A stretch of 64,000 nt of DNA from Pedobacter punctiformis (lineage in GTDB: Bacteria; Bacteroidota; Bacteroidia; Sphingobacteriales; Sphingobacteriaceae): positions 310,001 to 374,000 of the forward strand of contig NZ_JAPWGM010000004.1 in NCBI RefSeq assembly GCF_027213715.1. Reading direction: 5' to 3'. Every line of letters begins with the position of its first letter. Within the stretch, counting starts at the first letter, position 1. Shown here one piece after another: positions 11,312-55,719 of this stretch. Under the pieces are notes generated by a model that was not told the origin of the DNA, did no database searches, and was given only the letters and a program-made list of their open reading frames with translations. Made by a program: the position numbers and the translations under genes.

Positions 11312-11337
11312 CGTCTTTGCGAGGCACGAAGCAATCT
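11312..11337. repeat. Dispersed intergenic repeat, copy A (single arm)
   Basis: The segment contains TTGCGAGGCACGAAGCAATC, which recurs with small changes at 46901-46926, 46950-46975 and 49691-49716. It is non-coding and lies between the thioredoxin-fusion gene and the Prc gene. Such short palindromic elements are scattered between genes in this group of bacteria; no transposase is nearby. Confidence 0.7.
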
Positions 11338-41851: not shown

Positions 41852-43051
41852 TTAGTTTGTCCTGCCTGGATATTGCTGTAAAGCAATCTCTAAACAATCC
41901 ATGGCCGTATTTAAATCATCTGTATTTAAAACGTAAGCCATTCTAACCTCATTTTTACCAGAACCCGGTGTAGAATAGAAACCTGTTGCAGGTGCCATCA
42001 TAACCGTTTGATTGTTGTGGTTAAATTCTTCTAAAATCCACTGACAAAACTTATCCGCATCATCAATTGGAAATTTAGCAACCACATAAAAAGCACCACC
42101 CGGGTTAGGACAAAAAACGCCATCAATCTTGTTTAATCTTCCAACCAAAGTATCTCTGCGTAAAGTATATTCTGTATTTACTTTTTCAAAATAGCTGTCA
42201 GGAGTATCAACAGCGGCACTACCTGCAATTTGCTCTACCATACCCGGACTTAACCTTGCTTGTGCAAATTTTAAGCCCGAAGCAATTACCTCCCTGTTTT
42301 TAGTAATCATGCAACCCAAACGGGCACCACAGGCACTGTAACGTTTAGATACCGTATCCATAATCACTACGTTTTCATCTAATCCATCCAAATGCATTGG
42401 CGAAATAAATTCACGGCCATCATAGCAAAACTCCCGGTAAGCCTCATCAGAGAATAAGAACAAATCGTATTTTAAGCAAAGCGATTTTAAAGCCTCCAAT
42501 TCTTCCCTCGAATATAAATAGCCTGTAGGATTATTTGGGTTGCAAATAATAATCGCTTTGGTTTTATCGGTTATTAGCTTTTCAAACTCCGCAATAGGAG
42601 GCAGGGCAAAACCATTTTCGATATAGGATAAAATTGGTTTAACCACTACATTACTCATGCAGGCAAAACCATTATAGTTTGCATAAAAAGGCTCAGGGAT
42701 AATAATTTCATCACCCTCATTTACGCAGGTTTGCATGGCAATGGTAATGGCTTCAGAGCCACCAACCGTTACCAGTATATTTTCAGGCTTAATGTTATAG
42801 CCTAATTTATTGTAATATTCGGTTAACTTGATGCGATAGCTTAATGTTCCTTCAGATGGTGTATAAGCCCAAACATTAAAATCAATGTTTTTAATGGCGT
42901 TCAACATTCCTTCTGGGGTTTCAATATCCGGCTGACCAATATTTAAGTGGAAAACCTTTTTACCATTTTGTTTAGCTTTATCGGCAAATGGTGTTAACTT
43001 TCTGATGGGCGATGCAGGCATCTGCAAGCCTTTTTGTGAAATCTTTGGCAT
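41852..43051 (-). CDS. Class I pyridoxal-phosphate aminotransferase
   Basis: The 399-residue enzyme belongs to the aspartate/aromatic aminotransferase group (fold type I). Visible are NIGQPDIETPEGM at the N-terminus, VTVGGSEAITIAMQTCVNEGDEIIIPEPFYANY, AIIICNPNNPTGYLYSREEL (Asn and substrate contacts), FLFSDEAYREF and the PLP-binding Lys in TVSKRYSACGARLGCMI. It could be the transaminase for phenylpyruvate or hydroxyphenylpyruvate, given the aromatic amino-acid genes 4 kb away, but other amino acids are equally possible. Confidence 0.9.
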   Translation of the reverse strand: MPKISQKGLQMPASPIRKLTPFADKAKQNGKKVFHLNIGQPDIETPEGMLNAIKNIDFNVWAYTPSEGTLSYRIKLTEYYNKLGYNIKPENILVTVGGSEAITIAMQTCVNEGDEIIIPEPFYANYNGFACMSNVVVKPILSYIENGFALPPIAEFEKLITDKTKAIIICNPNNPTGYLYSREELEALKSLCLKYDLFLFSDEAYREFCYDGREFISPMHLDGLDENVVIMDTVSKRYSACGARLGCMITKNREVIASGLKFAQARLSPGMVEQIAGSAAVDTPDSYFEKVNTEYTLRRDTLVGRLNKIDGVFCPNPGGAFYVVAKFPIDDADKFCQWILEEFNHNNQTVMMAPATGFYSTPGSGKNEVRMAYVLNTDDLNTAMDCLEIALQQYPGRTN

Positions 43052-43062
43052 GGCACAAAAAT

Positions 43063-43093
43063 AAAAAAGTCCCGATGAAAATCGGGACTTTTT
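43063..43093 (-). terminator. Intrinsic terminator after the DUF1573 gene
   Basis: Perfect 13-bp arms (43064-43076 and 43081-43093) around GAAA; on the - strand the stem ends in a T run. It separates DUF1573 from the aminotransferase gene 12 bases further on. Confidence 0.93.
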
Positions 43094-43675: not shown

Positions 43676-46102
43676 ATGATGCAGAATGAAAAACTTATTA
43701 CCAATTCTATTGATGCTTCTGAATTAAGTTTTAACGATTTTAAATCTATCGTTACAAACGATTATAAAATTGCTTTTGAGAGTAGACAAGCCAGTGTTTT
43801 AGGGCGCAGAGAAGTATTAACAGGTAAGGCTAAGTTTGGGATTTTTGGTGACGGTAAAGAAGTGCCTCAAATTGCTATGGCTAAGGCATTTAAAAAAGGC
43901 GACTGGCGTTCTGGCTATTACCGCGATCAAACCTTTGCATTCGCAGCAGGCATATCAACCCTAAAAGAATTCTTTGCCCAGTTATATGCAAATCCAGCCA
44001 CTGATGCCGATCCGTTTTCTGGCGGAAGACAGATGAACTGCCATTTTGCAACCAAATCTATTAATGAAGATGGAAGCTGGAATGATTTAACTCAAATTAA
44101 AAACAGTTCTTCCGATATCTCACCTACAGGTGGGCAAATGGCTCGTTTAGTGGGGCTTGCGTATGCTTCTAAACTCTTCAGAAATAATAAAGAACTCGAT
44201 TACCTGAAACATTTTTCTGTTGGCGGTAACGAAGTTGCCTTTGGTACCATCGGCAATGCATCGACCTCAGAAGGTGTATTTTTCGAGGCCATTAATGCTG
44301 CAGGCGTTTTACAGGTTCCTATGGCCATTTCTATTTGGGATGATGCCTATGGTATTTCTGTTCCGGCTAAATATCAAACCACAAAAGAAGATATTTCAGA
44401 GGTTTTAAAAGGTTTTCAGCGTGATGCCAATAACCCCGGCTATGAAATTTACAAAGTTAAAGGCTGGGATTATCCCGCTTTATGCGAAGTTTATGAAAAA
44501 GCCATAAATGTATGCAGGGAAGAACATGTCCCGGTTTTGATACATGTTACCGAGCTTACCCAACCACAGGGCCACTCTACTTCAGGCTCGCATGAGCGCT
44601 ATAAATCAAAAGACAGGTTAGGCTGGGAAACCGAGCACGATTGTATTTTGAAAATGAGAGAATGGATGCTCGAATCGGCAATTGTTACCGAAGAGGAAAT
44701 TGCTGAAATTGAGAAAAATGCAAAAATATTGGTTCGCAATGCACAAAAAGAGGCCTGGAATGAGTTTCTGGAAAGCATTAAACCTGAACAAAAACAAGTT
44801 GTAGATTTTATTGGCGGATTGGCTAAGCATCAACCTGAACTGGCCAGAATTGTAGCTCAACTGGCTTCAACAGCTGATGCCCAACGCAGAGAAGTGTTTA
44901 CTGCTGCCCGCAAAGCCATTCGTTTATCCGCCCAGTTTGATACCCCCGAACGTCGGGCATTTTTAGCATGGTACGAAAGTCAGGATGTTTTAAACTATGA
45001 TAGATATAATTCAAAATTACATACAAACGGAAAAGACTGCCCGGATAATATTCCCGTTGTAGCTCCTCAATACGATGACTTATCTAAAATGGTGGATGGC
45101 AGGGAAGTGTTAAACGCTTGTTTTAACGAAAACTTTGCCCGTGATCAAAGATTAGTTGCCTTTGGGGAAGATTTAGGAAATATTGGTGATGTAAATCAGG
45201 GTTTTGCCGGTTTACAGGCTAAATATGGCGAATTAAGAGTCACCGATACCGGGATTCGCGAAATGACCATTATGGGGCAGGGCATAGGTTTGGCCATGCG
45301 TGGACTAAAACCCATCGCCGAAATTCAATACCTGGATTACCTGATTTTTGCACTCAATGTGCTAAGTGATGATCTGGCTTCGTTATCCTATCGTACAAAA
45401 GGCATTCAGAAAGCACCAATGATTGTACGGACCAGAGGACACCGTTTAGAAGGCATCTGGCATTCAGGTTCGCCCATTTCGATGTTACTGGGCTCATTAA
45501 GAGGTTTGCATTTATGTGTGCCCCGCAATATGACTCAGGCTGCAGGGATGTACAATACTTTATTCAGGGCAGATGAACCCGCTGTAGTAATAGAATGTTT
45601 AAATGGTTACCGTTTAAAAGAAAAATTACCCAATAACGTTGGTGAATTTACTGTACCATTTGGTTTAGCCGAAGTTTTAGAAGAAGGAACTGACATTACC
45701 GTTGTATCTTATGGCTCTACCTTAAGAATTGTACAGGAAGCCGCAGAAGAATTGGCTTTAATGGGCATTTCAGTAGAAATTGTCGATCCACAAACCTTAT
45801 TGCCATTTGATACCACACATGTGTGTGCTACATCTTTACAAAAAACAAATAAACTTTTAGTGGTTGATGAAGATGTGCCAGGAGGAGGGTCAGCTTATAT
45901 TTTACAGAAAATATTAGAGGAACAAAAAGGGTATTTTTACCTGGATGCACAACCTAAAACACTAACAGCTAAAGCCCACCGTCCACCATTTGGTTCAGAT
46001 GGAGATTATTTTAGCAAACCATCCGTGGACGATGTAGTGGAAACCATTTATCAAATGATGCATGAAAGCAGACCCGATAAATACCCGGCTATTTTTAAGT
46101 AA
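43676..46102 (+). CDS. 2-oxoacid dehydrogenase E1, alpha and beta subunits fused
   Basis: The 808-residue protein joins an E1 alpha half (residues 1-410, with YYRDQTFAFAAGIS and SGSHERYKSKDRLGWETEHD, which carries the phosphorylation-loop-like region) to an E1 beta half (NACFNENFARDQRLVAFGEDLGNIGDVNQGFAGLQ, DTGIREMTIMGQGIGLAMRGLKPIAEIQYLDYL). It should decarboxylate branched-chain 2-oxo acids or pyruvate with thiamine diphosphate and pass the acyl group to an E2 partner encoded elsewhere. The usual GDG of the cofactor motif reads GNA here, and the distal NN reads DD. Confidence 0.9.
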   Translation: MMQNEKLITNSIDASELSFNDFKSIVTNDYKIAFESRQASVLGRREVLTGKAKFGIFGDGKEVPQIAMAKAFKKGDWRSGYYRDQTFAFAAGISTLKEFFAQLYANPATDADPFSGGRQMNCHFATKSINEDGSWNDLTQIKNSSSDISPTGGQMARLVGLAYASKLFRNNKELDYLKHFSVGGNEVAFGTIGNASTSEGVFFEAINAAGVLQVPMAISIWDDAYGISVPAKYQTTKEDISEVLKGFQRDANNPGYEIYKVKGWDYPALCEVYEKAINVCREEHVPVLIHVTELTQPQGHSTSGSHERYKSKDRLGWETEHDCILKMREWMLESAIVTEEEIAEIEKNAKILVRNAQKEAWNEFLESIKPEQKQVVDFIGGLAKHQPELARIVAQLASTADAQRREVFTAARKAIRLSAQFDTPERRAFLAWYESQDVLNYDRYNSKLHTNGKDCPDNIPVVAPQYDDLSKMVDGREVLNACFNENFARDQRLVAFGEDLGNIGDVNQGFAGLQAKYGELRVTDTGIREMTIMGQGIGLAMRGLKPIAEIQYLDYLIFALNVLSDDLASLSYRTKGIQKAPMIVRTRGHRLEGIWHSGSPISMLLGSLRGLHLCVPRNMTQAAGMYNTLFRADEPAVVIECLNGYRLKEKLPNNVGEFTVPFGLAEVLEEGTDITVVSYGSTLRIVQEAAEELALMGISVEIVDPQTLLPFDTTHVCATSLQKTNKLLVVDEDVPGGGSAYILQKILEEQKGYFYLDAQPKTLTAKAHRPPFGSDGDYFSKPSVDDVVETIYQMMHESRPDKYPAIFK

Positions 46103-46117
46103 AATAATTTATAATGT

Positions 46118-46153
46118 AAAAGAGCCCTGATTGTTCACAATCAGGGCTCTTTT
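46118..46153. terminator. Bidirectional intrinsic terminator
   Basis: Perfect 16-bp arms (46118-46133 and 46138-46153) around TTCA with A and T runs at the two ends, between the convergent E1 and DUF1684 genes. Confidence 0.93.
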
Positions 46154-46166
46154 ATGAGCTTGAAAT

Positions 46167-46775
46167 TTATTTTTTATGCTTTTTTTCACCCGAATAAAGC
46201 TTTTCCCCAGCCTTTATTGCTAAAGAAAGATCGTTTTCTTCAGGTGGCACCGGACAACGATAACCATCACTATAAGCACAGTAAGGATTATAAGCCTTAT
46301 TAAAATCGATTTCAATTTTTCCATCCTTTATATCAGTCGAACTTAAATCGATGTATCGGCCACCACCATAGGTTTCTTTATGATTGGTTTCATCCGTAAA
46401 AGGCAAAAAAAGTAAGTTTTTATATGCAGGATTTGCAGCCAGTGCAATGCTTTTATACAAAGTCATTTTAACAGGATTGCCGTTGATAATCAGGTTAATG
46501 TGCGCATAACGGTAAAATTCTTTACTCGTTCCATCATAAGTAGGCATTTTAAAAACTTTTTCATTTTCCAGTACCTCTACCGCTGCTGTAACCCTGTAAC
46601 TGCTGTCAGCATCATAAAAATGCAGGTCTTTTAAATCTGCTTCTTTTAAAGGAGAATGACTTTCTTTAACAAAATCCTGCTTGTAATTTTCACGGTGCAA
46701 GGCAATTTGATCGTTATGCGATTGCCCAAAAGCAGTAGTACTGATGATCAGAAGAAAAGGAATCAGATATTTCAT
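46167..46775 (-). CDS. Exported DUF1684 protein
   Basis: The 202-residue protein has a signal peptide (to AFGQ, residue 18) and the DUF1684 core: EVLENEKVFKMPTYDGTSKEFYRYAHINLIINGNPVKMTLYK and the hallmark YGGGRYIDLSSTDI, IEIDFNKAYNPYCAYSDGYRCPVPPEENDL. The conserved Cys and acidic residues suggest a metal or substrate pocket, but no activity is assigned. Monocistronic. Confidence 0.88.
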   Translation of the reverse strand: MKYLIPFLLIISTTAFGQSHNDQIALHRENYKQDFVKESHSPLKEADLKDLHFYDADSSYRVTAAVEVLENEKVFKMPTYDGTSKEFYRYAHINLIINGNPVKMTLYKSIALAANPAYKNLLFLPFTDETNHKETYGGGRYIDLSSTDIKDGKIEIDFNKAYNPYCAYSDGYRCPVPPEENDLSLAIKAGEKLYSGEKKHKK

Positions 46776-47109
46776 AATTCAAAATTACACCAAATATGTA
46801 TAAATTATAAACACCAGTGTCACCCAAAAATGATCTTTTCAATTTTGTATAACCTCATTTCAGGAAAGAAAAACTTAATTCTAATGGTAAACCAGTATTG
46901 AGATTGTTTCGTGCCTCGCAAAGACGCCCCATTTCGGTCATCCTACTTCCGTCATTGCGAGGTACGAAGCAATCTCCCTTTTTAGTATTCCTGTTACTGT
47001 GGGTAGAATTCTGTTCTTTTACTATTAATTATCTTTGTCAATCTTTAAGCATAAAGCGATAAAAGTTCACAAAGATTTTAGAGCAATTGTGCAATATGCT
47101 CCAGGTGTA
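46776..47109. other. Intergenic region with one palindromic repeat
   Basis: The 334 bases between the DUF1684 start and the aroC stop hold the dispersed repeat at 46901-46975 and otherwise nothing I can name. Confidence 0.6.
46901..46975. repeat. Dispersed intergenic repeat, copy B (both arms)
   Basis: Two 26-base arms, 46901-46926 and 46950-46975, are inverted copies with few mismatches around a 23-base spacer, both containing the GAGGYACGAAGCAATCT core or its complement. The unit can fold as a long hairpin. Confidence 0.75.
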
Positions 47110-48207
47110 TTAAACAATACTTGCTTTATTTCTTAAAAATTGATCAGCCAGTACCAATGCAGCCATGGCCTCTACAATAACCACAGCTCTGGGTACTACA
47201 CATGGGTCGTGGCGGCCTTTACCTTTAATTTCTGCAGCTTCGCCAGCCGCATTTATAGTTTGCTGATTGTGCATAATCGTTGCTACAGGTTTAAAAGCAA
47301 CTTTAAAAGTAATGTCCATTCCGTTTGAAATGCCACCTAAAATGCCACCCGCATGGTTTGTAATGGTTTTAAATACCTTAGCATCAGCAGCTTTGGGCTG
47401 AGGAATATCGTTATGTTCCGATCCTCTTAACTCACTTCCCGCAAAGCCCGATCCGTATTCAAAGCCATGTACCGCATTAATGCTCAACATCGCTTTACCT
47501 AAATCAGCATGGAGTTTATCAAAAACAGGTTCGCCTAAACCAGCAGGGCAGCCTTTAACTATACAACTAATTTTGCCGCCAACCGTATCGCCATCTTTTC
47601 TAACAGAATCTATAAAATCAATCATTTCATGAGCCGTAGCCGGATCGGCACAGCGCACAATATTTTCTTCCCTGATGGTTAGTAATGCTTTTAAATCATT
47701 ACTTTCCAAATTTGGTGCTTCAATAGTTCCAACAGCGGTTACATGCGCAAAAATTTCAATGCCCTGTTGTTTTAAAAACAATTTGGCAACAGCTCCCGCT
47801 GCTACACGTGCTGCGGTTTCGCGTGCTGATGAACGACCACCTCCACGATGGTCTCTGATGCCATATTTTGCATCGTAAACATAATCTGCATGACTTGGCC
47901 GGTAAACATCAACATTATGTCCGTAATCTTTAGACCGTTGATCTTCGTTAGGAATTAATAAAGCAATAGGTGTACCCGTACTTTTTCCTTCAAAAACACC
48001 GGATAAAATTTGAACCGTATCACTTTCTTTTCTTTGTGTGGTAATTTTAGATTGCCCTGGACGACGTTTATCCAGTTCAGACTGTATGAATTCTAAATCA
48101 ATATCTAATTGTGCCGGACAGCCGTCAATAATTACCCCGATGGCAACGCCATGAGATTCGCCAAAAGTGGTAATGCGAAATAGTTGTCCGAATGAGTTTC
48201 CTGCCAT
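47110..48207 (-). CDS. aroC: Chorismate synthase
   Basis: The 365-residue enzyme turns 5-enolpyruvylshikimate 3-phosphate into chorismate using reduced FMN. Signatures present: [71 protein letters not shown] and the C-terminal [26 protein letters not shown]. It is the last gene of the - strand aromatic run, 77 bases after aroA. Confidence 0.97.
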
Positions 48208-48284
48208 ATTTATTTTAGATTGATGATTTTAGAGTTACGATTTTCGTATTGTTTTAACTTTTAGTTCCTGATACTTGATTTTAG

Positions 48285-49553
48285 CTACCTGATATTTATA
48301 TCAAATCCTGCCTTTTTCAAATCTTCCCAAAAATAAGGATAAGATTTTTCAACAACCTGCATTTCTTCAATTTCTACCTCATTAATTAATAAAGCCAAAG
48401 GTGCAAAAGCCATTGCCATGCGGTGGTCCTCGTAGGTTGCAATGCTAATTTTATCCGGGAAATGAAGATTATCGCAATTTAAGGTATAAACCAGGTTATC
48501 CTCATTTAAAGTAACCCCAATTTTAGCCAATTCGTTTTGTAAAGCAGCAATACGATCTGTTTCTTTGATTTTTAAAGTTTCTAAACCTGTAAAAGCCATG
48601 TTTTTACCTAAAGCCGCTGCAATAACAACAATGGTTTGAGCTAAATCAGGACAGGTTTTTAAATCTAATATCTCAACAGTATCCAATGAAATCCCTAAAT
48701 TACTAATGGAAATTCCAGTTTGGCTTTTACTCGTTGCAATGCCAAAAATCTTCATAATCTTTTGAATCTGACTATCTCCCTGCAAACTTTTTTCTTTCAA
48801 AGCAGGTAAACTTATTTCAGCTTCTTCAGCTAAAGCCGCAATGCTGTACCAATAAGAGGCTGCACTCCAGTCGGGTTCTACAATTAAAGTTCCGGCTTTA
48901 AAAGCCTGTGGCTCAATTGTAATGGAGTTTCCGGTCCAGGAATGTTCAATTCCAACAGATTTAAGCATATCTAAAGTCATATCTACATATGGTTTAGACG
49001 TTAACTCACCCTCAATTTCTAAAGTTAAACCCTGAGAAAGGATAGGGGCAATCATTAATAAAGCAGAAATATATTGGCTGCTTACATCGCCTTTTATTTT
49101 AACTTTTGAAGCCGTTTGTTGTAACGGACCGCTAATATTTAAAGGCGGAAAACCTTCATTTTCTGCGTAGGAAATATCGGCTCCGATTTTTTTTAAGGCT
49201 TCGGTCAAAATACCAATCGGGCGTTGTTTCATACGCTCAGTTCCGGTTAAAAGGAAATTTCCGTTCTTTGCAGAAAGATAAGCAGATAAAAAACGCATAG
49301 CCGTACCCGCAGGGCCAACATCTATTAGTCTTGAGTCTTGAGATTTGAGTTCGGACTCTTCTTTCAAAGAAGTTAAAATACCATCAAGTGTAACGGTATC
49401 GGCTGCATTCGATAGATTTTCTACTTTAACCAGTCCTTTGCTTAGTGCGCTAATAATCAGCGCCCGGTTACATTCACTTTTTGAGCCTGTTAAAAGGATT
49501 TCCGTATCAATATTCTTATTTCCTTTAAAAGAAACTAAGGCATTTTTAGACAT
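48285..49553 (-). CDS. aroA: 3-phosphoshikimate 1-carboxyvinyltransferase (EPSP synthase)
   Basis: The 422-residue enzyme joins phosphoenolpyruvate to shikimate 3-phosphate. Motifs: LTGSKSECNRALIISALS, VGPAGTAMRFLSAYLSAKNGNFLLTGTERMKQRPIG (the PEP-site region), SSQYISALLMIAPIL, EPDWSAASYW and LKIKETDRIAALQNEL, then YEDHRMAMAFAPL. It lies between the DAHP synthase/chorismate mutase gene and aroC; a 239-base gap upstream contains a palindromic repeat. Confidence 0.96.
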   Translation of the reverse strand: MSKNALVSFKGNKNIDTEILLTGSKSECNRALIISALSKGLVKVENLSNAADTVTLDGILTSLKEESELKSQDSRLIDVGPAGTAMRFLSAYLSAKNGNFLLTGTERMKQRPIGILTEALKKIGADISYAENEGFPPLNISGPLQQTASKVKIKGDVSSQYISALLMIAPILSQGLTLEIEGELTSKPYVDMTLDMLKSVGIEHSWTGNSITIEPQAFKAGTLIVEPDWSAASYWYSIAALAEEAEISLPALKEKSLQGDSQIQKIMKIFGIATSKSQTGISISNLGISLDTVEILDLKTCPDLAQTIVVIAAALGKNMAFTGLETLKIKETDRIAALQNELAKIGVTLNEDNLVYTLNCDNLHFPDKISIATYEDHRMAMAFAPLALLINEVEIEEMQVVEKSYPYFWEDLKKAGFDINIR

Positions 49554-49648
49554 TTTTATTCTGTTTTTTTCTTAAATGGGTGGTGATTTCTATTTTTTAT
49601 TGGGTTTGTCATGTTGAATAATCACAACGCCACTTTAATTTAATAAAT

Positions 49649-49716
49649 CGTCATTGCATGATACGAGTTGTATAAACAACTATTGTTGTAAGATTGCTTC
49701 GTACCTTGCAATGACG
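49649..49716. repeat. Dispersed intergenic repeat, copy C
   Basis: The right arm 49691-49716 matches the core of copies A and B; the left arm from 49649 (CGTCATTGCA, then degenerate) is its eroded inverted partner. It lies between aroA and the DAHP synthase gene. Confidence 0.7.
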
Positions 49717-49792
49717 TTATGCAAAGCGATATATGAATGATTAAACGTTTTGGTTTTACCCTCCACCTTTAACCTTTAAACCCTTTACCTTT

Positions 49793-50932
49793 TTACGCTT
49801 TAACTTCAGCATGTTGTTCAGCAGCAATTCCTTTTTCAGCTTTGCCGGCATTCATAATTTCTGTTTGCTTACGAATAGATTCTCCGTGTACCAGCTCCAG
49901 AAATTTCTCTGTAAAGTTTAAATCCAGTTTTAAGGCTTTAGCAAAAGCGTGTCCTTTTTTAATAATGGCATCCCAACGGTTAACCTGTAAAATAGTTACC
50001 TGATTATCACGTTTAAACTCACCAATTTTTTCAACGATAGCCATACGTTCACCTAATTTTTGCAATAAAATATCGTCAATTTTATCAATCCCTTTACGTA
50101 AATCAGCTAACTTATCTGCAAAAGCCTCATTTGGTGCTTCAGGTTCACGTACCGTTAAACGATCAACCAATTCTGCCAAAGCCGCTGGTGTTACCTGCTG
50201 TTTAGCATCGGTCCATGCCACTGAAGGATCAACATGCGATTCGATCATTAAACCTTGCATATCTAAATCCAAAGCTTTTTGAGAAATGTAAGGAATTAAC
50301 TCGCGGTTACCACAAATGTGACTTGGATCGTTAATGATTGGCAAATCAGGGCAAAGTGTTTTTAACTGAATGGCAAGTTCCCACATTGGCTCATTACGGA
50401 AAGAACTTTTCTCGAAAGAAGAGAAACCGCGGTGAATGGCGCCAATTTTAGTAATACCTGCACCATTAATACGCTCAATTGCACCTATCCACAATTGCAA
50501 ATCAGGGTTAACCGGGTTTTTAATTAACACAGGTATATCATGACCTTTTAAAGCATCGGCAATTTCCTGAACCGTGAATGGATTTACTGTAGAACGTGCT
50601 CCAATCCATAAAATATCTACTCCGGCTGCTAAAGCCTCTTCAACGTGTTTTGCATTTGCAACTTCAACTGCAGTTGGTAAACCAGTTTCTGCTTTTGCAC
50701 GTTTTAACCACTCTAAACCAATGCTTCCGATACCTTCAAATTCTCCCGGACGGGTACGCGGTTTCCAGATACCTGCTCTTAGTACAGATACTTTTCCGGT
50801 TGCAGCTAATAAATGAGCTGTCGTTAATAATTGCTCTTCAGTTTCTGCGCTGCATGGCCCTGAGATCAATAATGGTTCGTTGTTGGTGTTTAACCAAGTG
50901 TTTAGTGGCTGAATGTTTAAATTAAGTTTCAT
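49793..50932 (-). CDS. Bifunctional DAHP synthase / type II chorismate mutase
   Basis: Residues 1-265 are a class I beta (KDO8P-synthase-like) DAHP synthase, with PLLISGPCSAETEEQLL, VSVLRAGIWKPRTRPGEFEGIG, PVLIKNPVNPDL and IINDPSHICGNREL; it opens the shikimate pathway from PEP and erythrose 4-phosphate. Residues about 280-365 are an AroQ chorismate mutase (LRKGIDKIDDILLQKLGERMAIVEKIGEFKRDNQ). The fusion is normal for Bacteroidota; the mutase domain is known in such enzymes to give feedback control by prephenate. It is 119 bases downstream of pheA, in a gap that holds an inverted repeat. Confidence 0.95.
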   Translation of the reverse strand: MKLNLNIQPLNTWLNTNNEPLLISGPCSAETEEQLLTTAHLLAATGKVSVLRAGIWKPRTRPGEFEGIGSIGLEWLKRAKAETGLPTAVEVANAKHVEEALAAGVDILWIGARSTVNPFTVQEIADALKGHDIPVLIKNPVNPDLQLWIGAIERINGAGITKIGAIHRGFSSFEKSSFRNEPMWELAIQLKTLCPDLPIINDPSHICGNRELIPYISQKALDLDMQGLMIESHVDPSVAWTDAKQQVTPAALAELVDRLTVREPEAPNEAFADKLADLRKGIDKIDDILLQKLGERMAIVEKIGEFKRDNQVTILQVNRWDAIIKKGHAFAKALKLDLNFTEKFLELVHGESIRKQTEIMNAGKAEKGIAAEQHAEVKA

Positions 50933-50977
50933 GTTTTATGGATTGTAATATTTTATAATTCTGTTTATTGTTTAATC

Positions 50978-51021
50978 GGTTAACTGTTTTATGTGGTTTA
51001 TTGATGCTTGTACAGTTAACC
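50978..51021. promoter_or_regulatory. Inverted repeat upstream of the DAHP synthase gene
   Basis: GGTTAACTGT (50978-50987) and ACAGTTAACC (51012-51021) are perfect 10-base inverted copies 24 bases apart, in the 119-base gap between pheA and the DAHP synthase gene. It could be an mRNA hairpin or an operator; no T run follows. Confidence 0.45.
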
Positions 51022-51051
51022 AATTTGTACAATTTCAATGTTTAATCTATT

Positions 51052-51885
51052 TTATACTTTATCGTTTTTTTGATACTCTCCGAGGATATTGAAGTTCGAC
51101 GTATATTTTAAAGCCTTTCTAACTGCTTTATCATATTTTTCTGTGCTAGGCCATTCCAAATCAACATAAAAATAATATTCGTTTCTTTTTCCAAGTACCG
51201 GCATAGATTGTATTTTGGTTAAGCTTACCTCTTGTTCTGCGAAGATGTTTAACACTGTTGCCAACGAACCCGCTTTATGTCCTACCTGGAAACAGATTGA
51301 AGCTTTATTAATTTTCTTGCCTTCATCTGTTTTATCTTTTTTAAGAATCAGAAAACGAGTATAGTTTTTCTTGTTTGATTCTACTCGACGTTCTAAAATG
51401 TTTAAACCATATAGCTCTGCCGCAAGGCTATTTGCAATGGCCATTGTATCTGTCAACTGCTCTTCCTGAATGCGTTTTGCACAAGCCGCAGTATCATTAC
51501 TTTCTACAATTTTAATGTTTGGGTAATCATAAAAGAAATCAATACACTGGCGAATGGCGATAGGGTGAGAGGTAACCACCTTAATGTCTTCAAATTTTAC
51601 ACCTGGTAAAGCCATCAGGTGCAATTGAATTGGAAGGTAAACTTCGCCAACAACCGAAAAACCATAATCGCGAATCAAGGTGTAATTTGGTAGTAAACTG
51701 CCTGCAATTGAATTTTCAATGGCCATTACCACAAAGTCTGCATCGTTTTTTTCAAGCTTATCACAGGTTTCTTTAAAAGAATTACATTCTATGGTTTCAA
51801 TATCCTTACCAAAGAACTTGTAAGCGGCTTCTTCATGAAAAGATGCTTTAATGCCTTGAATCGCTATTCGTTTTGTCGTTTCCAT
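51052..51885 (-). CDS. pheA: Prephenate dehydratase
   Basis: The 277-residue enzyme converts prephenate to phenylpyruvate, the committed step to phenylalanine. Catalytic domain: RIAIQGIKASFHEEAAYKFFG, VMAIENSIAGSLLPNYTLI, the SHPIAIRQCIDF segment, and a TRFLILKKD end to the domain (consensus TRF with the catalytic Thr). The C-terminal ACT domain (KASICFQVGHKAGSLATVLNIFAEQEVSLTKIQSMP) binds phenylalanine for feedback inhibition; the usual GALA reads AGSLA and ESRP reads IQSMP. Expression is predicted to be under an attenuator directly upstream. Confidence 0.95.
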   Translation of the reverse strand: METTKRIAIQGIKASFHEEAAYKFFGKDIETIECNSFKETCDKLEKNDADFVVMAIENSIAGSLLPNYTLIRDYGFSVVGEVYLPIQLHLMALPGVKFEDIKVVTSHPIAIRQCIDFFYDYPNIKIVESNDTAACAKRIQEEQLTDTMAIANSLAAELYGLNILERRVESNKKNYTRFLILKKDKTDEGKKINKASICFQVGHKAGSLATVLNIFAEQEVSLTKIQSMPVLGKRNEYYFYVDLEWPSTEKYDKAVRKALKYTSNFNILGEYQKNDKV

Positions 51886-51898
51886 TTTTGCTTAAAAC

Positions 51899-51928
51899 AA
51901 AAAAGTCCCGGCTGTTTGCCGGGACTTT
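51899..51928 (-). terminator. Attenuator terminator in the pheA leader
   Basis: Read on the - strand, AAAGTCCCGGC (51928-51918) pairs perfectly with GCCGGGACTTT (51912-51902) around a 5-base loop, followed by T residues to 51899. It lies 13 bases before the pheA start codon and 40 bases after the leader-peptide stop, so when it forms it stops transcription before pheA. Confidence 0.9.
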
Positions 51929-51967
51929 CTTATACAATTTAATATTTGTTATATATCTTTTTGCATA

Positions 51968-52033
51968 TTAGCCCCGGCTCTCACTAAAATAGTAAAAGTA
52001 ACCAAAGCTATAATATGTGTTTTTATTTTGCAT
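51968..52033 (-). CDS. pheA leader peptide
   Basis: A 21-codon frame, ATG at 52033-52031 and TAA at 51970-51968. Residues 7-16 read YYSFGYFYYF: five Tyr and three Phe in ten codons. Such a run directly before a terminator in front of a phenylalanine-synthesis gene is the mark of ribosome-mediated attenuation. Starvation for charged tRNA-Phe or tRNA-Tyr would stall the ribosome in this run. The start lies about 17 bases from the -7 element with an AAGAAAAAA stretch before it. Confidence 0.85.
   Translation of the reverse strand: MQNKNTYYSFGYFYYFSESRG
51970..51978 (-). promoter_or_regulatory. Antiterminator segment
   Basis: GCCGGGGCT, at the very end of the leader frame, can pair over 9 bp (one G-U) with AGTCCCGGC, the 5' arm of the terminator (51926-51918). 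A ribosome reaching the leader stop would cover this segment and let the terminator form; one stalled on the Tyr/Phe codons would leave it free. Confidence 0.75.
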
Positions 52034-52049
52034 TTTTTTCTTGTTGAGC

Positions 52050-52079
52050 CAAATGTACAAACAAAATTTAATTTGTCAA
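52050..52079 (-). promoter_or_regulatory. Promoter of the pheA leader transcript
   Basis: On the - strand TTG (52079-52077), 19 bases, then TACATTTG (52057-52050), an exact fit to the Bacteroidota -33/-7 promoter. Transcription would begin roughly 5-8 bases further on, about ten bases before the leader-peptide ATG. Confidence 0.8.
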
Positions 52080-52224
52080 TAGCAAAGTGAAATTTTTTTA
52101 AACAAAATTTAATTTTCTTTTGGATAGCCTGTTTCTAAAATGAAGTTAAGGTGAGGCTATTTTTAATGCAAAACAAAATTTTAATTGGTTTTGTGCTTAA
52201 TGAATAAGACTTCGCTGATGTTAA

Positions 52225-53175
52225 TTAACCTGCAGAGCTTAGTTCCCGTTGATGTTCGTTCATGTCCTTAACCTTTTCTTTTGCTTCAGCTTCCCTCAGT
52301 TCCTGTTGCATAATTTTAGCAATTTTGGTGCTGCCATCATGACTCCAGCCCGGGGGGTTAATAACGTATTTTATTTTATCGATAAAAGTCGGTGCTTTTT
52401 TAACATCATCTTTTAAGGCAATAAACTCATGGAAAATAATATTTACAGGTCCTGTATCTTTAGGCTGAGTAGTTAATCCGTATTTAATGGCATCTTCCGG
52501 TAACTCCTCCTGAAAAGTACCAAACCACCTGTCCCATAAAATTAAAACCATACCCATGTTTTTATCCAGATAACGAACATTGCTGGCGTGGTGTACCCGA
52601 TGGTGTGATGGCGTTACAAAAATATACTCAAACCATGGATGTAATTTGCCAACCGTTTGCGTATGTACCAGGTTGCCATAAATTTGAGTAACCAGATAAG
52701 CAAAAAGAATATCCATTGCACTAAAACCCATAAAAGCTAAAGGCAGGTAAAAGAATACGCGGTATAACGGTTCAAAAACAGTAGAACGGAAACCTGTTGT
52801 CAGGTTAAAATGTTCTGATGAATGGTGCGTAACGTGCATGGCCCAAAAAAAGCGTACGTAGTGGCCAACCGTGTGCAAAAACCAGTATAAAAAATCCTGG
52901 GCAAGAATTAAAACAATCCAGTAGGCCCAAACATTCGAAATTTGAAATAACCTGAACTGATAGCAATAATCAAGCAAAAAGAAAGTCGCCGTTTTCATGC
53001 CTAAATTAATCACCACAGCAGCGGTCATTAAGTAAATATTAGTCCAGGTATCTCTTTTAGTGTATAATTTTTTATCGTGTTGATAACTAAAATACATTTC
53101 CACGATGGTAAGTACAATTACGAAACCGAATAGTGCACCAACAGAAATATCTCCACTTGAAAAACTCGCAGTCAT
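52225..53175 (-). CDS. Sterol desaturase / fatty acid hydroxylase family membrane protein
   Basis: The 316-residue inner-membrane protein has several helices and the eight-histidine diiron signature of the superfamily: HTVGHYVRFFWAMHVTHHSSEHFN and THHRVHH-type SHHRVHHASN. These enzymes hydroxylate or desaturate lipids using oxygen. The substrate is unknown. It begins one base after aroB stops, so it is co-transcribed with aroB even though a link to aromatic synthesis is not obvious. Confidence 0.9.
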   Translation of the reverse strand: MTASFSSGDISVGALFGFVIVLTIVEMYFSYQHDKKLYTKRDTWTNIYLMTAAVVINLGMKTATFFLLDYCYQFRLFQISNVWAYWIVLILAQDFLYWFLHTVGHYVRFFWAMHVTHHSSEHFNLTTGFRSTVFEPLYRVFFYLPLAFMGFSAMDILFAYLVTQIYGNLVHTQTVGKLHPWFEYIFVTPSHHRVHHASNVRYLDKNMGMVLILWDRWFGTFQEELPEDAIKYGLTTQPKDTGPVNIIFHEFIALKDDVKKAPTFIDKIKYVINPPGWSHDGSTKIAKIMQQELREAEAKEKVKDMNEHQRELSSAG

Positions 53176-53176
53176 T

Positions 53177-54235
53177 TTATAAGCTGTTGTAGTAATCTAA
53201 ACTGCCTAAAATATCGGCGGTACTTACACGGCAGTTGAAAGTGCATTTACCAATGTTTTCTAATAAGGAGAACAAAATATTGCCATCCTCATTTTTCTTA
53301 TCGCTTTGCATTAACTCCAGTAAAGCATCAAAACTTTCTTCTTTGATATTGTATTTAGGGTATAATGAAATTATATATTGACTAATGTCTGCCAGTTCAG
53401 CATCGCTAAGGTTGCTGTTTTTAACAGATAAATAAGCTTCAGTTACAAAACCAATGGCAATTGCTTCGCCATGGGTTAATGGACTTTCATCATTTGCCAG
53501 CGAATAACTTTCTACAGCATGACCAATGGTATGGCCATAGTTTAAAATTTTACGCAGGTTTTTTTCATGTGGATCAATGGTAACCACTTCGTTTTTAATT
53601 TCTACAGAACGGTAAATATCTTCTGCTGAAGGCGTTAAATGATTGCTTTTTTGTAATTTTTCGTAATAAGCTTTGTCAGCAATCAAGCCATGTTTAATCA
53701 TTTCAGCAAAACCCGAAAGCAGCTGCCTGTCTGATAATGTTTTTAAAAATGCAGTTTCAATGTAAACAGATTGAGGCAGGGTAAAAGTACCCACCATGTT
53801 TTTTACGCTGTCTATATCAATTCCGGTTTTACCACCAACAGAAGCATCAACTTGCGAAAGCAGGGTAGTAGGAACATTAATAAAATCGATGCCCCGTTTA
53901 TAAGTTGAAGCGATAAAGCCACCCATATCCGTTATCACGCCACCACCAAGGTTAATCATTAAACTTTTACGGTCTGCCTCAAAATCCAGTAAGGTTTTCC
54001 AGATCCCGATGCAAAAATCGATATTTTTATTTTCTTCCCCGGCGGAAGTTTCAATCAGATCAAAACTGTTGTAATCATCCAGTAAAGCCTGAAAAACAGG
54101 TAAACACTGTTCACTGGTATGTTCATCGGCAAGTACAAAAACTTTGCTGTACTTATTTTCGTCCAGTAAAGTTTTTAAAGTAGCTAAACCACTTTCAAAA
54201 TATAGACTATGTCCTGCGCTGGTTAGTGGTTCCAT
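53177..54235 (-). CDS. aroB: 3-dehydroquinate synthase
   Basis: The 352-residue NAD- and metal-dependent enzyme makes 3-dehydroquinate, the second shikimate-pathway step. Motifs: SLMINLGGGVITDMGGFIASTYKRGIDFINVPTTLLSQVDASVGGKTGID, KNMVGTFTLPQSVYI, GFAEMIKHGLI, EKNLRKILNYGHTIGHAVES and LTHGEAIAIGF with metal-binding Glu and His residues. Its ATG overlaps the stop of the S4 gene (TAATG), so translation is coupled. Confidence 0.97.
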   Translation of the reverse strand: MEPLTSAGHSLYFESGLATLKTLLDENKYSKVFVLADEHTSEQCLPVFQALLDDYNSFDLIETSAGEENKNIDFCIGIWKTLLDFEADRKSLMINLGGGVITDMGGFIASTYKRGIDFINVPTTLLSQVDASVGGKTGIDIDSVKNMVGTFTLPQSVYIETAFLKTLSDRQLLSGFAEMIKHGLIADKAYYEKLQKSNHLTPSAEDIYRSVEIKNEVVTIDPHEKNLRKILNYGHTIGHAVESYSLANDESPLTHGEAIAIGFVTEAYLSVKNSNLSDAELADISQYIISLYPKYNIKEESFDALLELMQSDKKNEDGNILFSLLENIGKCTFNCRVSTADILGSLDYYNSL

Positions 54236-54441
54236 TAAATTATTTCAATTTTATGTTCGGCAAATTCAACTATATCTCCTTTTTTTACTTTTAAACGCTT
54301 GCGATAATCTACAACACCATTGTATTTAACCAGGCCGTCTATCACAACCATTTGCGCATCGCCACCACTGCTTACCAAACCGGTAGCTTTTAAGAGCTGA
54401 ATTAAGGGAATAAATTCGCCTTCTAATTTAAATTGTATCAT
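54235..54441 (-). CDS. Small S4-domain RNA-binding protein
   Basis: The start is set at the ATG ending 54441 (MIQFKLEGEF), because the 54450 start would be TTG. The 68-residue protein is a single S4 domain (IPLIQLLKATGLVSSGGDAQMVVIDGLVKYNGVVDYRKRLKVKKGDIVEF) of the YbcJ type, which binds structured RNA. It is the first gene of the S4-aroB-desaturase transcript. Its divergent neighbour is proline dehydrogenase, 93 bases away. Confidence 0.88.
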   Translation of the reverse strand: MIQFKLEGEFIPLIQLLKATGLVSSGGDAQMVVIDGLVKYNGVVDYRKRLKVKKGDIVEFAEHKIEII

Positions 54442-54534
54442 TTTGTGCAAAAATACAATTATTTACAGGTTTTTGGTTTTAACAAGCCAATGCTTTTTAT
54501 AATTTTGCATCCGTTTGACTAAAAGAACCCTAAA

Positions 54535-55719
54535 ATGGAGATATCCCCCAATAAACAACCAAATTTTGATAATACTGAAGTCGCTTTCAGACAAAAGTCT
54601 AACGGAGCGCTTAAAAAAGCATATTGGTTATTTAAACTGATCAGCAGTAATTTCTTAACAAAAATAGGCCCGCCGATTACAAATTTTTTCCTCAATATTG
54701 GTTTGCCGATTCAAGGGGCTATTAAATCGACCATTTTCCAGCAATTTTGCGGTGGCGAAACCATTGCCGAATGTGATAAAGCCATTGAGCAGTTGAATAA
54801 AGGTGGTGTAGGCACTATTTTAGATTATTCGGTAGAAGGCGAAGAAGAAGAGCAAGTTTTTGATGAAACTTGTGAAGAGATTATCCGCACCATTTTAAGA
54901 GCAGATGGCGATAAAAGAATCCCGATTACCGTATTTAAAGTGACGGGAATTGGCCGTTTTGCTTTATTACAAAAATTAGATGCCAAAGAAACCTTAACGA
55001 TAGAAGAAACAGCAGAATTTGAAAAGGTAAAAATACGTTGCGAAAGAATTTGCCGTACGGCTTACGAGCGTAAAGTGCCAATTATGGTTGATGCAGAAGA
55101 AACCTGGATTCAGGATACAATTGATGAACTGGCTTTGGATATGATGCGCAAATTTAACCGTGAAGGCATTATTGTTTACAATACTTACCAAATGTACCGC
55201 CACGATAAACTGACAGATATGAAGGCTGACCATTTAATAGCTAAAGCTGCAGGTTTTATTTTAGGAGTAAAAATGGTTCGTGGTGCTTATATGGAAAAAG
55301 AAAGAAAGAGAGCTGCAGAAATGGGCTATCCTTCACCCATTCAACCTGATAAAGCAGCCTCAGATCGTGATTACAATGAATCATTAAGGTATTGTGTAGA
55401 CCATATCGAAGATATTGCAATTGTTGCAGGTACACACAATGAGGAAAGCAGCCGCTTATTAACCTATTTACTGGAAGAAAAACAAGTTGCTCACAACCAT
55501 CCTCATATTTATTTTGCTCAACTTTTAGGAATGAGCGATAATTTGAGCTTTAATTTGGCAGATTCGAACTACAATGTTGCTAAATACGTGCCTTATGGGC
55601 CAATTAAAGCCGTAATGCCTTATTTGTTTAGAAGGGCACAGGAAAATACATCTGTTGCCGGACAAACCGGAAGAGAGCTGGGGTTGATTGAAAGAGAGCT
55701 GAAAAGAAGAAAAATATAA
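54535..55719 (+). CDS. Proline dehydrogenase
   Basis: The 394-residue FAD enzyme oxidises proline to pyrroline-5-carboxylate. Signature regions of the TIM barrel are present: PIMVDAEETWIQDTIDELALDMM, GIIVYNTYQMYRHD, GVKMVRGAYMEKERKRA, IAIVAGTHNEESSRLL and the C-terminal YVPYGPIKAVMPYLFRRAQENTSVAGQTGRELGLIERELKRR, where paired Arg residues bind proline. It is a stand-alone enzyme without the PutA aldehyde dehydrogenase part. A terminator follows 24 bases downstream. Confidence 0.93.
   Translation: MEISPNKQPNFDNTEVAFRQKSNGALKKAYWLFKLISSNFLTKIGPPITNFFLNIGLPIQGAIKSTIFQQFCGGETIAECDKAIEQLNKGGVGTILDYSVEGEEEEQVFDETCEEIIRTILRADGDKRIPITVFKVTGIGRFALLQKLDAKETLTIEETAEFEKVKIRCERICRTAYERKVPIMVDAEETWIQDTIDELALDMMRKFNREGIIVYNTYQMYRHDKLTDMKADHLIAKAAGFILGVKMVRGAYMEKERKRAAEMGYPSPIQPDKAASDRDYNESLRYCVDHIEDIAIVAGTHNEESSRLLTYLLEEKQVAHNHPHIYFAQLLGMSDNLSFNLADSNYNVAKYVPYGPIKAVMPYLFRRAQENTSVAGQTGRELGLIERELKRRKI

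Follow-up and report, generated by a model that had tools for sequence, protein, structure and literature searches.

A conserved Tyr/Phe leader and mutually exclusive hairpins before pheA in Pedobacter punctiformis: a predicted ribosome-mediated attenuator found in many families of Bacteroidia

Results and Discussion

Features of the pheA locus

The window, which here means the whole 64-kb stretch of Pedobacter punctiformis DNA that was analysed, carries a pheA gene on the - strand, preceded by a compact regulatory region and followed by three further genes. The features are listed below in the direction of transcription.

52077 to 52079, - strand: -33 promoter element TTG, Bacteroidota type (sequence; kept in relatives)
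52050 to 52057, - strand: -7 promoter element TACATTTG (sequence; kept in relatives)
51968 to 52033, - strand: leader peptide gene MQNKNTYYSFGYFYYFSESRG, 21 codons (ATG at 52033, stop at 51970-51968)
about 51964 to 52017, - strand: 1:2 hairpin within the leader frame (folding and pair counts)
51970 to 51978, - strand: segment 2 GCCGGGGCT, the final codons of the leader frame (sequence and comparison)
51918 to 51926, - strand: segment 3 AGTCCCGGC, common to the antiterminator (2:3) and the terminator (3:4) (sequence and comparison)
51899 to 51928, - strand: intrinsic terminator hairpin (11 bp, loop AAACA) and T-run (sequence and comparison)
51052 to 51885, - strand: pheA, prephenate dehydratase (PDT + ACT; domain and homology matches)
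49793 to 50932, - strand: DAHP synthase/chorismate mutase fusion (DAHPS/CM), gene 2 of the unit (homology; gene order)
48285 to 49553, - strand: aroA, EPSP synthase, probable unit member (homology; gene order)
47110 to 48207, - strand: aroC, chorismate synthase, probable unit member (homology; gene order)

In the promoter, TTG (52079-52077) is separated by an N19 spacer from TACATTTG (52057-52050). The leader contains five Tyr codons (positions 7, 8, 12, 14 and 15) and three Phe codons (positions 10, 13 and 16), and its residues 7-16 constitute an aromatic stretch. The terminator is formed by the arms AAAGTCCCGGC (51928-51918) and GCCGGGACTTT (51912-51902) around the loop AAACA, with the T-run extending to 51899, and the ATG of pheA (51885) lies 13 bases beyond the T-run. 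An earlier note on this DNA had described the promoter, the 21-codon leader with more Tyr than Phe codons, the segment at its end, the perfect 11-bp hairpin with its T run, and pheA, and all of these were reproduced exactly to the base, including the codon excess (5 vs 3). The 9-bp complementarity that it had claimed between the segment and the hairpin arm was likewise confirmed, segments 2 and 3 forming nine pairs, of which one is G-U. To that description we add a third helix, the 1:2 hairpin inside the leader frame, with outer arms CATAT...ATATG and inner arms CTTTTAC/GTGAGAG. With this helix present, the anatomy fits the full classical scheme of 1:2, 2:3 and 3:4 pairings.

Of all ATG frames in the 64-kb window that are 10-45 codons long, the leader alone reached 8 aromatic residues in 10, the runner-up having 6, and a value of 8 or more was obtained in 0.04% of trials with first-order Markov versions having the base composition of the intergenic region. 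Scans with sigma-70 and terminator patterns gave no excess compared with shuffles; the simple terminator pattern did not list the real pheA hairpin, which marks the limit of that pattern. Elsewhere in the window, a perfect 18-bp inverted repeat at 46117-46154 lies between convergent genes and is probably a two-way terminator.

Conservation and distribution of the leader

We compared 90 pheA loci from about 20 genera, which were assigned to Sphingobacteriaceae from named members. As a result, an aromatic leader was found before pheA in all 90, mostly 125-220 nt upstream, and also in 80 of the 80 named loci. The terminator was found by script in 87 of the 90 family loci, and in the remaining three the hairpin was visible by eye, with a T-run interrupted by G. 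A strict TTG-N17-22-TAnnTTTG promoter was located upstream of the leader in 72 of the 90, and Tyr codons outnumbered Phe codons in 66 of the 90 leaders. Among 43 non-redundant leaders, the 8-codon run was 86% aromatic, compared with 11% on either side, and its positions held Tyr, Phe or Trp identity despite codon changes, one position being occupied by TAT, TAC, TGG, TTT or TTC. Furthermore, a covariance model of the region (R1) gave a single outstanding match per genome, located upstream of pheA wherever compared, weaker matches elsewhere in the genomes, from about 1e-4 upward, being taken as noise. A weak R1 match in the window, at 43064-43093, is a 13-bp hairpin with A/T flanks located 13 nt upstream of an aminotransferase gene (41852-43051); it stands 3' of another gene and is probably an ordinary terminator.

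Outside the family, an aromatic leader preceded pheA in 54 loci of 17 other families, with both Tyr and Phe codons in all 54, a downstream terminator found by script in 49, and more Phe than Tyr codons in 40. Most of the Bacteroidia families sampled thus have the device before pheA, and the conserved leader frame that the earlier note had proposed to look for in relatives was present well beyond Sphingobacteriaceae. The leader was absent from the inspected loci of the Bacteroidia families f12, f24, f53 and part of f15, and from the inspected loci of other classes with more distant PheA.

Four of the 17 outside families (f69, f72, f81 and f87) are labelled as belonging to the same phylum and not to the same class. 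Their PheA scores as the Bacteroidia type, and therefore a transfer of the operon, together with its control, into these lineages is possible. The attenuator and a Bacteroidia-type PheA occur in genomes labelled outside the class at loci L282, L283, L284 and L285. In family f61, the leaders (L263 and L264) carry Cys besides Phe and Tyr (TCFCFFFYFY), as if further codons had entered the run.

Helix support by pairing and covariation

Pairing in the three helices was counted in 40 distinct family sequences. The terminator (3:4) was 96.3% paired, with double-sided changes in 7 of 10 pairs. The antiterminator (2:3) was 93.3% paired, compared with 17-59% when slid, and showed double-sided changes in three pairs (five cells). 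The 1:2 hairpin, for which 16 pairs were counted, was 93.1% paired, compared with 33-47% when slid, and its 24 double-change cells were matched by 0 of 500 shuffles, a count that is not a probability because the sequences are related. Compensatory changes, which the earlier note had named as a check on the terminator and the antiterminator alike, were therefore evident in the terminator, and likewise in the 1:2 hairpin, whereas the antiterminator kept its pairing with weak covariation owing to the near invariance of segment 2; its support comes mostly from conservation.

In the 1:2 hairpin, synonymous TAC/TAT swaps in a Tyr codon accompany G/A swaps in the opposite arm. The leader frame does double duty in providing both the codons and the pairing of the 1:2 helix, and the conservation of the codons TAC TTT TAC could be partly due to the helix and not to sensing.

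Switching between the helices and the predicted mechanism

The effect of ribosome position was evaluated at 42 loci: the transcript was folded as far as segment 4, leaving out the ribosome footprint, which was taken to reach 12 nt downstream of the A-site start. The antiterminator pairs were formed at an average of about 93% when the ribosome was stalled at the aromatic codons and at 88% when it was at the last aromatic codon, compared with 0% when it was at the stop codon. At one locus (L088) the value was 0 throughout, perhaps owing to a wrong choice of segment 2 by the script. In the ribosome-free equilibrium fold, the antiterminator reached 82% and was favoured in most loci, so that the outcome without translation would hinge on the order of folding. 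The mutual exclusion claimed for the segment pairing and the terminator also holds, as both use segment 3 (51918 to 51926), and the folding agrees with it.

The region thus combines a run of aromatic codons in a leader predicted to be translated, an intrinsic terminator between the leader and pheA, a 1:2 hairpin, and an antiterminator, incompatible with the terminator, that no longer forms in folding once the ribosome occupies the stop codon. We therefore consider it highly probable that this is a classical leader-peptide, ribosome-mediated transcription attenuator of the pheA unit, sensing the charging of Tyr-tRNA and Phe-tRNA. The parts are present and conserved and their pairings are mutually exclusive; from these we infer ribosome stalling, ribosome-polymerase coupling and the direction of the response, as follows. 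The transcript would start about 15-20 nt upstream of the leader ATG. When Tyr and Phe are ample, the ribosome would reach the stop codon and mask segment 2, which would allow the 3:4 terminator to fold and transcription to end before pheA. When Tyr or Phe is scarce, the ribosome would stall in codons 7-16, opening the 1:2 hairpin and exposing segment 2, and the 2:3 pairing would then form before segment 4 is transcribed, letting the polymerase continue into the operon.

Genes and amino acids in the predicted control

In the named loci, pheA was followed by DAHPS/CM in 80 of 80, and the order pheA-DAHPS/CM-aroA-aroC was found in 77 of 80. The spacing between the DAHPS/CM and aroA matches was 3-7 nt in about a quarter of these relatives, and the gaps in the window are 119 nt from pheA to DAHPS/CM and 239 nt from DAHPS/CM to aroA. 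Given the conserved gene order and the gap sizes, control of pheA and DAHPS/CM by the attenuator is likely, and that of aroA and aroC is probable, not certain. A REP-like palindrome lies inside the 239-nt gap; the REP-like sequence CGTCATTGCRAGGNACGAAGCAATCT occurs four times in the window (49691-49716, 46950-46975, 46901-46926 and 11312-11337), with a chance expectation of 0.

The earlier note had weighed the Tyr codons against the premise that pheA serves phenylalanine only. This premise does not hold, as the attenuator precedes the gene row pheA-DAHPS/CM-aroA-aroC, with tyrA included in the homologous operons of most other families. DAHPS/CM, aroA and aroC lie on the route to both products, so that Tyr and Phe codons match the operon output, and joint control of the unit by the two amino acids would be expected. 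A clear tyrA match was located close behind pheA in 15 of 20 operons examined from other families, mostly at an interval of about 1.2 kb, and in 10 of these 15 DAHPS/CM followed within the stretch examined.

In the window genome, a tyrA-like gene is located on a different contig (G000:C1 about 229200-230400; L204:619-1875) without an aromatic leader. It encodes a 418-aa prephenate dehydrogenase-like protein with a weak Pfam PDH_N score, which we take to resemble the yeast TYR1 type, and a weak PDH_N match of this kind is all that many Pedobacter genomes show. The idea that Pedobacter lacks TyrA and obtains Tyr solely via PheA and phenylalanine hydroxylase was rejected as the only explanation of the Tyr codons in view of this enzyme. 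Hydroxylase-like halves are also present, and both Tyr routes, by the TyrA-like enzyme and by the hydroxylase, may exist in this genome. Four stand-alone canonical tyrA genes were checked in relatives, and none had an aromatic leader.

A Trp codon within the run (TYWFGYFYY) was found in 30 of the 90 family leaders, 31 of the 80 named loci and 19 of the 54 others, and is absent from the leader of the window. A broader reading, which we hold tentatively and regard as rather doubtful, is that of one ancient Bacteroidia attenuator integrating all three aromatic amino acids, in which the Trp-codon leaders also sense Trp-tRNA and ribosome and polymerase are tightly coupled. If it is true, the Trp-codon leaders would adjust the shared pathway steps (DAHPS, aroA, aroC) to the overall need for aromatic amino acids. 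The trpE gene of the window genome (G000:C1 about 1295400-1295700; L205:1250-1440) has a Trp-containing leader of its own, MNRNTHTWLWQSNSKKNCAGCVCKI; downstream of it come a hairpin, GCCCGACGT...ACGTCGGGC, with a T-run, and together these elements are probably a separate Trp attenuator. Bacteroid-trp (Rfam RF01692; PMC2864571) is a Bacteroidetes cis-regulatory RNA that takes its name from trp; its model gave no match at 45000-55000 of the window, and the trpE upstream region scored below the gathering score of the model.

Alternative explanations

One alternative is that only one amino acid is sensed and that the other aromatic codons serve the 1:2 helix, whose inner CTTTTAC sits in the Tyr-Phe-Tyr codons TAC TTT TAC with nearly invariant bases; the shift from mostly Tyr-rich leaders in the family to mostly Phe-rich ones elsewhere would also suit it. 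However, every leader outside the family contains both residues, codons beyond the inner helix remain Tyr, Phe or Trp even though their bases change, and the operon serves both products, and we consider single sensing unlikely.

That the hairpin merely terminates the upstream aroB-hydroxylase genes, the leader frame being accidental, could be suggested by its position about 300 nt past the stop codon of the preceding gene, which has the same orientation. Nevertheless, a conserved promoter, leader and 1:2 helix stand directly before the hairpin across the family, and the device is retained upstream of pheA in many other families, which makes this explanation extremely improbable. An additional action in trans of the terminated leader RNA or of the aromatic peptide, besides attenuation, has a precedent in the trans-acting leader peptide peTrpL of Sinorhizobium (PMC7298713). 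The strong conservation of the leader, including the Gly of FGYFY in much of the family, would be in line with such a role, but the 1:2 helix, through its GG:CC pairs, accounts for this Gly codon, and we regard action in trans as very unlikely. Attenuation by a ribosome translating the mixed Tyr/Phe leader is the reading that we retain.

Comparison with known systems

The pheA region is not a member of the Rfam family Phe_leader (RF01859), the match being 24.3 bits with an E value of 1.7 against a gathering score of 55. No T-box or other Rfam cis-regulator reached its gathering score at 45000-55000 of the window (AgrB, BSnc120 and others remaining below), and no Rfam model gave a match at gathering score in the pheA loci of four relatives or in the trpE locus. 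The attenuator, which is unlisted in Rfam, would provide a concrete and widespread form of aromatic amino acid control for the class Bacteroidia, whose members include bacteria of the gut, of soil and of fish. Translation start in Bacteroidota does not rely on Shine-Dalgarno sequences, and the leader could be a natural reporter of transcription-translation coupling in bacteria that initiate in this manner. The mixed Tyr/Phe(/Trp) codons also make joint amino acid sensing directly testable.

The enterobacterial pheL-pheA system likewise has a leader peptide and a terminator before pheA, with equal logic. The pheL leader of Escherichia coli is rich in Phe and lacks Tyr, whereas the Pedobacter leader mixes Tyr and Phe codons, and the unit adds DAHPS/CM and probably aroA and aroC. 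Enterobacterial leaders for several amino acids are found at ilvGMEDA (Ile/Leu/Val) and thr (Thr/Ile); there, too, one leader has codons for several amino acids, although the amino acids and operons differ.

Within the phylum, a putative attenuator has been listed for pheA>hisHb>aroAIb-aroQ>tyrA of Bacteroides thetaiotaomicron, from Merino's predictions (Table 7 of PMC1173090); this entry concerns the same gene and, as far as the table goes, is a listing without leader or structure. In Flavobacterium psychrophilum, a structured 5' element without an Rfam match, kept in other Flavobacteriaceae genera, was reported before pheA, and leader-peptide attenuation was also proposed for amino acid operons (PMC9723704). 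It is very likely, judging from the available part of that report, that this element is the same device as the Pedobacter attenuator; compared with the present analysis, the main text, to the extent available, comes without the leader sequence, a three-helix analysis, a Tyr/Phe assignment or a distribution past Flavobacteriaceae. Taken together, the pheA attenuator, with its predicted mechanism, appears to be a well-supported new case among the ribosome-mediated attenuators.
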